A DNA stretch of 64,000 bases from Desertimonas flava (GTDB lineage: Bacteria; Actinomycetota; Acidimicrobiia; Acidimicrobiales; Ilumatobacteraceae). The notes below the pieces were generated by a model. It had not been told where the DNA came from. It saw nothing but the letters and a program-made list of their open reading frames with translations, and did not search any database. Below are positions 47,059-49,965 of this stretch, piece after piece; position 1 is the first letter of the stretch; each line of letters opens with the position of its first letter. The stretch is taken from positions 1 through 64,000 of the forward strand of contig NZ_QKYK01000012.1 in assembly GCF_003426815.1 (NCBI RefSeq), given 5' to 3'. A program made the translations under genes and the position numbers.

Positions 47059-47086
47059 TTGCGAATAAAGCTGGCTTTTGTAGACT
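47059..47086 (+). promoter_or_regulatory. Promoter for the riboswitch-ATPase transcript
   Basis: TTGCGA (47059-47064), 16 bases, TAGACT (47081-47086) is a reasonable housekeeping promoter. The expected transcript start, about 47092, falls at the first base pair of the riboswitch P1 helix, which makes both calls more likely. Confidence 0.55.
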
Positions 47087-47090
47087 GGTC

Positions 47091-47181
47091 TCCGAAGGGG
47101 AGTATCCCAGTACAGTGTTGTCGTCATCTCGGCCCTCGGCCCGGCGGCGCTGGTCCGATGACGGGCGGAGAGACCTTCGGA
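47091..47181 (+). ncRNA. yybP-ykoY manganese riboswitch
   Basis: P1 is formed by TCCGAAGG (47091-47098) and CCTTCGGA (47174-47181). Inside it are the family's conserved words in the right order: GGGGAGTA directly after the 5' strand, a CGTCATC loop segment (47122-47128), GGGCGG and GAGACCTTCGG at the 3' side. This motif binds Mn2+ and turns on exporters when the metal is high. It ends 30 bases before the ATG of a P-type ATPase, a known target class. The leader has GGAGG at 47199. Confidence 0.82.
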
Positions 47182-47211
47182 AGCGGTTTTGACCCACCGG
47201 AGGCACACGAG

Positions 47212-49965
47212 ATGACAGTTCCAACCATCGACGCAGAGGATGCTGCACCGTGGCATGCGATGTCGGATGTCGATGTCGAGGCGGCATTGGGAGTGGGCCG
47301 TCGTCACGGCCTGGACCTCGATGAGGTCGTTCGCCGACGGGATGTGTTCGGCGCGAACGAGCTGGCGGACGACGGCGGTCGGAGCGCGTGGCGGCTGTTG
47401 TGGGATCAGGTTCGGGCGGTGATGGTCCTGATCCTGTTGGCGGCGGCGGCGTTGTCGCTGCTGCTCGGCAAATTGCTCGAGGCCGCAGCGGTCACCGCGA
47501 TCGTGGCCCTGTTCGTGACGTTGGGGTTCGTGCAGGAGCGACGGGCCGAGCGGGCGATCGCCGCCTTGCGGCGGATGTCGACACCCGAGGTTCGTGTGCG
47601 TCGCGGTGGTGTCGACATGACGGTGCCGTCGGCGGACCTGGTACCCGGTGACGTGGTCGTGGTGGAGGCGGGCAACGTCGTGCCGGCTGACCTGCGGCTG
47701 GTCGAATCGGCGAGCGTCCGGCTGCAGGAGGCGGCGCTCACCGGCGAGTCGGAGCCGGTCGACAAGTCTCTCGATCCGGTCGCTGGCGACGCCCCGTTGG
47801 CCGACCGACGGAACATGCTGTTCTGCGGTACCCAGGTCGTCTACGGGCGCGGGGTGGGCGTCGTGGTGGCGACGGGGATGCACACCGAGCTCGGACGCAT
47901 CGCAGCGTTGCTGGGGGATGTCGCGGACGAGGCGACACCGTTGCAATGCCGCCTGGATCGGGTTGGCAAGCAGCTGGCTGCGGCGGGCGTGGTCGTGGCC
48001 GGCCTCGTGGTGGCCATGGGGGCAGCCGCCGGCGAGAGTGCCGAGGATCTCATCCTCACCGCAATCGGCGTGGCCGTCGCCGTCATCCCCGAGGGTCTAC
48101 CGGCGGTCGTCACCGTCACACTGGCCATCGGCGCGCAACGTATGTTGCGCCGCCAGGCGTTGGTACGACGTCTGTCGGCCGTCGAGACGCTCGGTTCGGT
48201 CACCGTCATCTGTTCGGACAAGACCGGCACGCTGACACAGAACCGCATGACGGTCACAGTCGTCGACGTGCTCGACCACGGCGTCGACCTCGACGCATTG
48301 CCGAGCGCGGCGCTCGACAGCTCGCTGGCGCGAGCCACGATCGTTGCGGGAGCACTGTGCAACGACGCCGAACTCGCGCCGGGCGCCGCGGACGGCATCG
48401 GTGATCCCACCGAGACTGCGTTGCTGGTCGCGGCGACACGGATCGGCCAGGATCCCGAGGGGTTGCGCCGGTCGGCGCCGCGCCGCGGCGAGGTGCCGTT
48501 CGACTCCGATCGCAAACGGATGTCCACGATCCACGACATCGAGGAGGCTGACCTGCGGGCACTGTTCCCGCTCGTCTCCGCAGACCACCGACTCGTGGTC
48601 GTGAAGGGCGCGCTCGACGCATTGGCATCGCGCCTGGTCGGCGTCCAGGCCGCGGACCGCGTCGCCCCGCTCGACGACGACCTGCGCGACAGAGTGCTCG
48701 CCGCCGGGGATCGGCACGCAGCTGCCGGCCTGCGCGTGTTGGCCGTTGCGTATCGGTCGATGCCGACGGACGGGTCGTCGGCGGCGTCCGTCGAGATCGA
48801 GCAGGATCTGATCCTGCTCGGGCTGGTCGGCATGATCGATCCGCCGCGTCCCGAGGTGGCCGCCGCGGTCGGCCGGTGCACCGCCGCCGGAATCCGTCCG
48901 GTGATGATCACCGGTGACCACCCGCTCACGGCACGTGCCATCGCGGGCCAGCTCGGCATCGGTGCCAGTGAGGTGGTCACCGGCGTCGACCTCGACCGCA
49001 TCGACGGTGAGGGGCTGCGTGACACGGTGCGGCGCGTGTCGGTCTTCGCCCGGGTCACCCCGGAGCACAAGCTCCGTCTCGTCGAAGCGCTCAAGGCGAA
49101 CGGTGACGTCGTCGCGATGACCGGTGACGGCGTCAACGACGCCCCCGCCCTCCGCCGCGCCGACATCGGCGTGGCGATGGGCATCACCGGCACCGACGTG
49201 TCCAAGGAGGCCGCCGCCATGGTGTTGCGCGACGACAACTTCACCACGATCGTCGCCGCCGTCGAGGAGGGCCGGGTGATCTACGACAATCTGCGCCGCT
49301 TCGTCGCGTTCGCCGTCGCCGGGAACCTCGGCAAGGTCCTCGTCATGCTCGGCTGGCCGATCCCGCTGTTGCTGACAGGCAACACGGCCGAGGCGGTGGC
49401 GTTGCTGCCGCTGCAGTTGCTGTGGCTGAACCTGATGACCGACGGTCTGCTGGGCCTGGCGATGGGTGTCGAGCGGGCCGAACGTGACGTGATGAGCCGC
49501 CCCCCGATCGACCCGAACGCAGGGATCCTGTCCGGACATCACGGTCGCCACACGCTCCTGGCCGGCGGCGCGATCGGCGGCATCGCTCTGGCGGTCGGGT
49601 TCACCTACCACATCGCCGACCGACCCGAGTGGCAGACCATGATCTTCACGGCGCTCACGTTCCTGCAGATCGGCCAGGCGCTCGCCACCCGTTCCACCGT
49701 CGAGCCGATCTGGCGGCTCGGGCTGCGCTCCAACCCGACCATGGCCTTCGTCGCCACCGCTGTCCTGGCGTTGACCGCTGCCGCCTTGTACACGCCGCTT
49801 CACGAGTTGCTCGACGTCGCCCCGCTCGACATCGTCGATCTCGGCGTCTGCGTGCTCGCGGCCATGGTGCTGGTCGGTGTCATCGAGGCCACAAAGACCC
49901 GCCGCCGTGGCGCCCCGTCGCCTCTTCCTGCCCCTTCGATCGACGCCGTGGAGGTGTCCGTATGA
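47212..49965 (+). CDS. P2-type cation-transporting ATPase (probable Mn2+/Ca2+ exporter)
   Basis: A 917-residue P-type ATPase. Landmarks: N-terminal cation-ATPase domain (residues 10-70), TGES in the actuator (about 177), IPEGLPAVV in TM4 (about 292), phosphorylation site CSDKTGTLTQN (about 336), TGDGVNDAP (about 637) and the six C-terminal TM helices. The PEGLP motif and lack of heavy-metal CPC place it with the SERCA/PMR1 group, which moves Ca2+ or Mn2+. The yybP-ykoY leader argues for Mn2+ export. ATG 47212 follows GGAGG; the longer frame runs through the riboswitch. Confidence 0.92.
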   Translation: MTVPTIDAEDAAPWHAMSDVDVEAALGVGRRHGLDLDEVVRRRDVFGANELADDGGRSAWRLLWDQVRAVMVLILLAAAALSLLLGKLLEAAAVTAIVALFVTLGFVQERRAERAIAALRRMSTPEVRVRRGGVDMTVPSADLVPGDVVVVEAGNVVPADLRLVESASVRLQEAALTGESEPVDKSLDPVAGDAPLADRRNMLFCGTQVVYGRGVGVVVATGMHTELGRIAALLGDVADEATPLQCRLDRVGKQLAAAGVVVAGLVVAMGAAAGESAEDLILTAIGVAVAVIPEGLPAVVTVTLAIGAQRMLRRQALVRRLSAVETLGSVTVICSDKTGTLTQNRMTVTVVDVLDHGVDLDALPSAALDSSLARATIVAGALCNDAELAPGAADGIGDPTETALLVAATRIGQDPEGLRRSAPRRGEVPFDSDRKRMSTIHDIEEADLRALFPLVSADHRLVVVKGALDALASRLVGVQAADRVAPLDDDLRDRVLAAGDRHAAAGLRVLAVAYRSMPTDGSSAASVEIEQDLILLGLVGMIDPPRPEVAAAVGRCTAAGIRPVMITGDHPLTARAIAGQLGIGASEVVTGVDLDRIDGEGLRDTVRRVSVFARVTPEHKLRLVEALKANGDVVAMTGDGVNDAPALRRADIGVAMGITGTDVSKEAAAMVLRDDNFTTIVAAVEEGRVIYDNLRRFVAFAVAGNLGKVLVMLGWPIPLLLTGNTAEAVALLPLQLLWLNLMTDGLLGLAMGVERAERDVMSRPPIDPNAGILSGHHGRHTLLAGGAIGGIALAVGFTYHIADRPEWQTMIFTALTFLQIGQALATRSTVEPIWRLGLRSNPTMAFVATAVLALTAAALYTPLHELLDVAPLDIVDLGVCVLAAMVLVGVIEATKTRRRGAPSPLPAPSIDAVEVSV

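Follow-up and report, generated by a model that had tools for sequence, protein, structure and literature searches.

A probable yybP-ykoY Mn2+ riboswitch without the P2 hairpin ahead of a P-type ATPase gene in Desertimonas flava

The first 64,000 nucleotides of contig NZ_QKYK01000012.1 of Desertimonas flava (assembly GCF_003426815.1, forward strand), referred to here as the window, contain a gene for a P-type ATPase preceded by a leader RNA that almost certainly belongs to the yybP-ykoY family. We consider it likely that this element, at positions 47091–47181, is a Mn2+ riboswitch of the form without a P2 hairpin, that it acts as a translational ON switch and that the ATPase exports Mn2+. The riboswitch family, the kind of target and the kind of platform are all known ones; the place is one missed by the standard Rfam model, RF00080.

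The aptamer and its conservation

The aptamer was located with R1, a covariance model made from 17 Bacillota aptamers (16 matches to RF00080 and the Parvimonas leader L105) and free of sequences from the window's own lineage. The 16 were picked from 34 RF00080 loci (L121–L154), mostly for their absence of P2, and the secondary structure of the model was set by hand and then checked on its alignment. The match at 47091–47181 scores 58.6 bits with an E value of about 3e-13 (rough calibration) and is the sole one up to E = 10 in the 64 kb. An exact search of the window for the three family motifs gave 0 matches, the second gap being 41 bases where the pattern allowed 40.

The helices read from the sequence are P1.1, P1.2, P3, P3.1 and P4 (Table 1). 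Compared with the four-helix P1–P4 form the P2 hairpin is absent, and matches to RF00080 without P2 exist elsewhere, for example L122 (34.3 bits) and L125 (36.5 bits). The original prediction, which was made from the letters of the window, described a P1 stem enclosing the family motifs in order, and this is readily seen: every pair of P1.1 is a Watson–Crick pair, and GGGGAGTA, CGTCATC (47122–47128) and GAGACC follow one another inside it in the family order. The L1 signature (GGGGAGUA...GAGACC, at 47097–47104 and 47170–47175) is accompanied by A41 in L3, at 47126. With the numbering of the Lactococcus lactis aptamer, in which A41 is described as the Mn2+-contacting adenosine (PMC9190785) and L3 is given as UCAAUUC (PMC6754395), the loop of the window has U39 at 47124, C40 at 47125, U44 at 47129 and C45 at 47130. 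All the Mn2+-site bases listed for L. lactis (G9, U39, C40, A41, U44 and C45) are kept. We also considered CGTCATC as a separate stem, which we rejected; the model alignment puts it at the end of P3 and over most of L3, and the best fold with CGTCATC paired to GATGACG (47157–47163) has an energy of −41.5, or −40.2 if P1.1 is retained as well; the native aptamer reaches −48.0.

Relatives of the ATPase were collected from the nearest genomes (30 loci, window included) and from further genomes (80 loci). In 11 of the 30 nearest loci, the window among them, and in 10 of the 80 further ones (E up to 0.0065), an R1 match immediately precedes the pump; a twelfth case in the nearest genomes, L019, has its aptamer cut off by the contig end (E = 1.2). 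Another three matches in these loci lie elsewhere than upstream of the pump: one in L055, the second of two in L078, and one in L060 that is weak. When 30 aptamers of the class are placed on the model, 92.4% of the cells are paired (standard pairs) with 169 two-sided changes, compared with means of 71.5% and 56.3 in shuffled controls and at most 50.1% and 38 when the structure is slid along the alignment. Since R1 itself had found 19 of these rows, the covariation was recounted on the other 11, which entered through the ATPase and a motif pattern independently of the model; here 93.9% of the cells are paired with 53 two-sided changes, and the maxima among shuffles are 82.5% and 29. The L1 bases G8–A13 and A41 of L3 are invariant in all 30 aligned aptamers, and position 44 is U in 3 (window included), A in 21 and C in 6. 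A search against plasmids gave one 38-base match. The identification of the element as a yybP-ykoY Mn2+ riboswitch is thus borne out by the independent model, the covariation and the metal-site bases.

A promoter-like pair of hexamers lies immediately upstream (Table 1), and the earlier suggestion that it sets the start of the transcript at the stem agrees with what is found in the relatives: 22 of the 30 leaders have a TANNNT hexamer that ends 2–11 nucleotides 5′ of the aptamer, while in 2000 base shuffles of the leaders the mean number with a hexamer so placed is 2 and the maximum 7. Because this position is conserved, the RNA probably starts at about the first bases of P1.1. GAGACC (47170–47175) has a second complementary sequence in GGTCTC at 47087–47092, on the 5′ edge of P1.1, but this could matter only with a transcription start upstream of about 47087.

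Table 1 Features of the leader RNA and the genes that follow it (positions in the window)
Feature	Position	Strand	Basis
Putative yybP-ykoY (Mn2+) riboswitch aptamer	47091–47181	+	R1 match, pair coordinates, covariation
P1.1, TCCGAAGG / CCTTCGGA	47091–47098 / 47174–47181	+	8/8 Watson–Crick pairs
P1.2	47105–47107 / 47167–47169	+	
P3	47113–47123 / 47142–47152	+	
P3.1	47131–47134 / 47138–47141	+	
P4	47153–47156 / 47163–47166	+	
L1 strand GGGGAGTA	47097–47104	+	L. lactis G9 = 47100, A10 = 47101
L3 metal-binding loop GTCATCTC (predicted)	47123–47130	+	Aligned to L. lactis numbering
GAGACC, L1 3′ strand and start of P1.1 3′ strand	47170–47175	+	Sequence; model alignment
Promoter-like pair, TTGCGA 47059–47064, 16-nt spacer, TAGACT 47081–47086	47059–47086	+	Sequence; hexamer position conservation
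Putative switching strand CCTTCGG, P1.1 3′ side or anti-Shine–Dalgarno	47174–47180	+	Pairs with 47197–47203, 7 pairs, one G–U
CCGGAGG with Shine–Dalgarno GGAGG (47199–47203), 8 nt before ATG	47197–47203	+	Sequence
P-type ATPase, type IIA (PMR1/SERCA/LMCA1-like), 917 residues	47212–49965	+	Pfam, PDB, TIGR01522
103-residue protein with N-terminal TFIIB-type zinc ribbon	49962–50273	+	PF13453, 63.1 bits, 1.5e-17

The expression platform

The ATG of the ATPase is at 47212, at the distance of 30 nucleotides past the stem that had been predicted for it, and the 3′ strand of P1.1 has, by its sequence, two pairing options, the 5′ strand of its own helix and the Shine–Dalgarno region. In the relatives the sequence of the P1.1 5′ strand recurs around the Shine–Dalgarno, and the two change together, as CCTTCAGCG with CGCTGAAAGG in L012 and CCTTCGATTG with CAATCGAAGAGG in L166. 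The anti-Shine–Dalgarno duplexes were compared over 23 leaders from the class of the window, for which we picked the start codons by hand, and the set of 80 further loci was not used; L159, L161, L165, L167, L168, L170 and L175 were left out, as the 3′ strand of P1.1 seemed to be in a hairpin of its own or the start was unclear, and L155 and L157 as duplicates. The cognate duplexes have a mean energy of −16.3 kcal/mol against −11.5 kcal/mol with swapped partners, and none of 10,000 permutations reached the observed sum. No intrinsic terminator was seen in 47091–47215, because no run of T there exceeds 4.

With the helices of the two states imposed as constraints, the ON and OFF folds have energies of −46.1 and −45.7 kcal/mol, that is, 0.4 kcal/mol apart, and this near-equality holds for RNA ending at or before the start codon. 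With eight bases past the start codon the values are −46.1 and −51.0, and OFF is favoured by 4.9 kcal/mol. We take these energies as support for a switch and not as proof of it.

The class is described as ON switches in PMC9190785 and PMC11647493, and from the pairings we infer a scheme of that sort. At low Mn2+ the CCTTCGG strand would mask the Shine–Dalgarno and translation would be off; Mn2+ bound between L1 and L3 would keep P1.1 closed and so free the Shine–Dalgarno, allowing translation of the ATPase and of the zinc-ribbon gene that overlaps its end. The ATPase would then export Mn2+, perhaps Ca2+ too, as a detoxifying pump, a role suggested by what is known of its family and by its ion-site residues.

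The P-type ATPase

The translation has the Pfam domains PF00122, PF00689, PF00690 and PF13246, so that Cation_ATPase_N, E1-E2_ATPase, HAD and Cation_ATPase_C regions are all present, and the motif DKTGT can be read in it, as in a type IIA pump. The best matches in the PDB are 6zhf (E = 4.3e-173) and 9euq (4.8e-173), both the Listeria Ca2+ ATPase LMCA1 (lmo0841), which has the same type IIA architecture. The score with TIGR01522, the PMR1 model, is 657.2 bits, below its cut-off of 798.3, and for this reason we do not file the protein as a PMR1. Leu749 occupies the position of Q783 of PMR1, the glutamine of which we take to be a Mn2+ determinant.

In what we take to be the numbering of SERCA, the site II residues E309, N796 and D800 are kept, as E294, N740 and D744. 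The site I glutamate is lost, with Lys708 in the place of E771 and Gln819 in that of E908. LMCA1 differs from the window in having Ala and Arg, respectively, at these two positions. A comparison of residues was possible for 103 of the 110 loci, the other 7 giving fewer than 700 residues; the site I glutamate is lost in 13 of 21 riboswitch-linked pumps compared with 13 of 82 others (Fisher p = 6e-5, with no correction for descent). This pattern of residues fits a one-ion Mn2+/Ca2+ exporter. Export of Mn2+ is consistent both with the ion-site residues and with the kinds of gene found behind this RNA (TerC, GDT1 and ATPase).

Evidence against the proposal and alternative explanations

Several observations weigh against the proposed Mn2+ riboswitch and its translational platform. 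The first concerns detection. An Rfam scan (cmscan) of the 64-kb window reported only the RNase P RNA and a tRNA and no RF00080; a permissive scan of 451 bases likewise lacked RF00080 and gave two matches to other families, both attributable to chance; and RF00080 run against the whole genome had no match at the locus and two weak ones elsewhere, of 13 and 8.8 bits, where the gathering cut-off is 45 bits. The original prediction had offered a match above this cut-off as its check, and on that count it failed in the window and in the whole-genome search alike. We ascribe the negative to an insensitive model, since RF00080 also misses leaders with the full motif set and many Bacillota elements fall below the cut-off. 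Among the leaders missed in a permissive scan of ten loci are L105, L095 and L096, which have all the motifs and stand before homologous pumps. Within one order of Bacillota, searched under stricter filters, a match at E ≤ 1e-4 is found in 46 of 61 genomes and the cut-off is passed in 15 of 61, and among 14 control genomes there is a match at E ≤ 0.01 in 5 and at E ≤ 1e-4 in 3, with the cut-off passed in 2. L. lactis, the source of the reference structure, is one of the 5 and is absent from the 3, so that its own match presumably lies below the cut-off. The Rfam scan was accordingly dropped as an arbiter at such loci.

The other points concern the platform and the cargo. One review (PMC11477304) calls the class OFF switches. 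The window's own anti-Shine–Dalgarno duplex, at −14.0 compared with −13.1 for the Shine–Dalgarno sequences of other leaders, stands only eighth among the 23, and in L158 the pairing is missing (−5.5). When the RNA stops at the start codon, the unconstrained minimum (−47.8 to −47.9) retains P1.1 in large part but with a different fold inside it, and of 200 shuffles of that RNA, 82 fold as well as it does (z = −0.20); with a z of −1.83 in the other comparison, single-sequence folding energy is unremarkable and was discarded as a proof. It is also possible that Ca2+ is the pump's main cargo. Finally, the gain of the OFF state beyond the start codon vanishes in folds that retain P3, P3.1 and P4 (at 47222, −45.7 compared with −46.1), and thus requires refolding of the aptamer and not masking of the Shine–Dalgarno alone.

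In the folding model this refolding is probably a pairing of L3 with the region of the start codon. The 9 bases of GTCATCTCG (47123–47131) are the exact complement of CGAGATGAC (47208–47216), which holds the ATG, and the pairing has an energy of −16.1 in the window. Over the 23 leaders the mean is −6.9 compared with −6.3, and 430 of 10,000 permutations are as low, a weak trend on which we rejected the pairing as a family rule. That the metal-sensing L3 itself blocks the start codon in the off state, beside the exchange between P1.1 and the Shine–Dalgarno, is for us a rather doubtful proposal. If it is true, Mn2+ in L3 and the start-codon pairing would be mutually exclusive and the sensor would act directly as the repressor.

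A more credible alternative, though still an unlikely one, is that the Mn2+ riboswitch acts mainly through Rho-dependent or other transcriptional control, with Shine–Dalgarno masking being secondary. In the Escherichia coli mntP leader, Rho-dependent termination is described alongside a translational riboswitch (PMC11647493), and other members of the class seem, by eye, to use terminators, L105 and L078 having a hairpin followed by a run of T. Such control is, however, at odds with the lack of any run of T beyond 4 in the present leader and with the co-variation of the anti-Shine–Dalgarno pairing across leaders. We regard it as very improbable that the aptamer is tuned to another divalent metal and that the pump moves that metal, for example Ca2+; variants of altered specificity are expected in this family according to a review (PMC7266159), the best-scoring solved relatives of the pump are named Ca2+ ATPases and U44 is rare in the class, but every named Mn2+-site base agrees with the L. 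lactis aptamer. An unrelated stem-loop that carries the motifs by chance, as the absence of an Rfam match and the unremarkable folding might suggest, is practically out of the question given the E value of the independent model and, strongly, the conservation and covariation in the relatives.

Comparison with known riboswitches

A riboswitch-linked Mn2+/Ca2+ ATPase is reportedly present in Streptococcus. This case and that of Clostridioides difficile CD2503, where a Mn2+ riboswitch likewise stands before a cation P-type ATPase (PMC11477304), differ from the window in belonging to another phylum; CD2503 and L. lactis YoaB are pumps of a comparable sort that the same review describes as riboswitch-linked. 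The proposed Mn2+ riboswitch of the window is alike to that of L. lactis yoaB (PDB 4Y1I) in its L1 sequence, in its type of L3 (UCAnnUC) and in having P1.1 as the switch helix, and also in its ON logic and P-type ATPase target (PMC9190785, PMC11477304). They differ in that yoaB has four helices, P1–P4 (PMC9190785), whereas the window is without P2, and in that the platform of yoaB is a transcription terminator (PMC9190785, PMC11087558) whereas that of the window most likely masks the Shine–Dalgarno. In the latter respect the closer parallel is E. coli mntP, a translational ON switch with a ribosome-binding site that is described as inaccessible without Mn2+ and free with it; this leader, however, controls MntP rather than a P-type ATPase and has a 229-nucleotide 5′ untranslated region with Rho-dependent termination (PMC11647493). 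An actinobacterial yybP-ykoY leader, that of terC (cg2157) in Corynebacterium glutamicum, has been observed by RNA sequencing (PMC3890552) and differs in its TerC target. The three Rfam predictions given in that paper score 43.7–49.9 bits with the Rfam version used in 2013.

L3 types and downstream genes

The genome of the window has a second aptamer (L175, at G000:C56:20058-20155; 48.1 bits with R1), which has an L3 of the Xanthomonas oryzae type (UCGACAUGCUGG) and precedes a GDT1 (UPF0016) protein (PF01169, 4e-35). A survey of the class with R1 gave matches in at least 20 of 148 genomes. The survey is lossy, having missed both this second aptamer and genome G018, in which the element is present, and we therefore claim no frequency for the class. 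The gene after the aptamer in the 21 loci L155–L175 is a P-type ATPase in 7, TerC in 9, GDT1 in 4 and a Na/Ca exchanger in 1, as determined with Pfam in L175, L156, L159 and L161 and by eye in the rest; the gene of L162 is presumed to be TerC, the GDT1 of L167 was confirmed through the same place under L184, and the GDT1 frame of L165 looks broken. All four are usual targets of Mn2+ riboswitches. This list of target kinds comes in part from PMC3766115.

Two L3 patterns were then counted in 396 genomes of the phylum. The pattern with UCGACAnnCUGG (the UCGACA type) has 22 matches in 22 genomes (L184–L205), and 21 of the 22 precede GDT1 by tblastn; L202 is a chance-like match inside a gene. The pattern with UCGUCAnnACGG (the UCGUCA type) has 48 matches in 46 genomes, of which 30 were fetched (L206–L235), with best downstream tblastn matches to TerC in 13, to an ATPase in 10, to GDT1 in 0 and to none of these in 7. 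Two of the 30, L231 and L232, are chance-like; the ATPase matches of L226 and L227 lie 560 and 1194 bases from the beginning of the stretch, where another gene may come first. As a control the patterns were also read backwards, with 2 and 1 matches. The loop of the window itself (UCGUCAUCUCGG) falls outside the UCGUCA pattern, and the sorting is not absolute, the ATPase locus L168 and the exchanger locus L161 of the class survey carrying the UCGACA type. Across the phylum the L3 subtype thus tends to sort with the downstream gene, in counts without correction for descent.

We rejected the idea that the UCGACA type is a class of altered metal specificity. The Mn2+-bound structure from X. oryzae, a known Mn2+ sensor, has a loop, ACAUACU, of that type (PMC6754395), and the type is therefore no new ligand class. 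A difference in affinity between the two types is possible.

As a separate observation, the leaders with the UCGACA loop (L159, L161, L165, L167, L168 and L175) seem by eye to use another platform, in which the 3′ strand of P1.1 is in a hairpin of its own and, in several of them, a second hairpin handles the Shine–Dalgarno.

The zinc-ribbon gene and other features

The stop codon of the ATPase (TGA, 49963–49965) overlaps the ATG of the zinc-ribbon gene at 49962 by 4 bases (ATGA). From this overlap the co-expression of the two genes proposed at the outset follows, but in a motif search of the flanks collected the gene is behind the pump in just 3 of 11 riboswitch-ATPase loci (the window, L016 and L020). 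Over all 110 loci these three are the only ones with the gene in that place, and in L069 and L099 the same search finds it upstream of the pump; a tight operon of pump and zinc ribbon was rejected on these counts. Because of the 3 in 11, the gene looks like an optional companion of the pump. Two more matches to PF13453 occur elsewhere in the genome, a strong one of 59.4 bits and a short, weak one of 22.9 bits, and the Pfam name of the domain carries no implication that the protein is a transcription factor.

Farther downstream, on the strand of the zinc-ribbon gene, 50443–50832 encodes a MarR-like winged-helix protein. The bacterial class A RNase P RNA (26107–26465, 218 bits) and the tRNA gene on the minus strand (52697–52770, 71.9 bits) are ordinary.

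Implications

Related genomes hold Mn2+ riboswitches that the standard Rfam model leaves unreported where this was tested, and R1 provides a working finder for them. For pumps with Ca2+ ATPases as their closest named relatives, the riboswitch suggests Mn2+ as the probable cargo. The sorting of L3 types with transporters, GDT1 on the one hand and TerC or the ATPase on the other, hints that the loops may set different metal thresholds.

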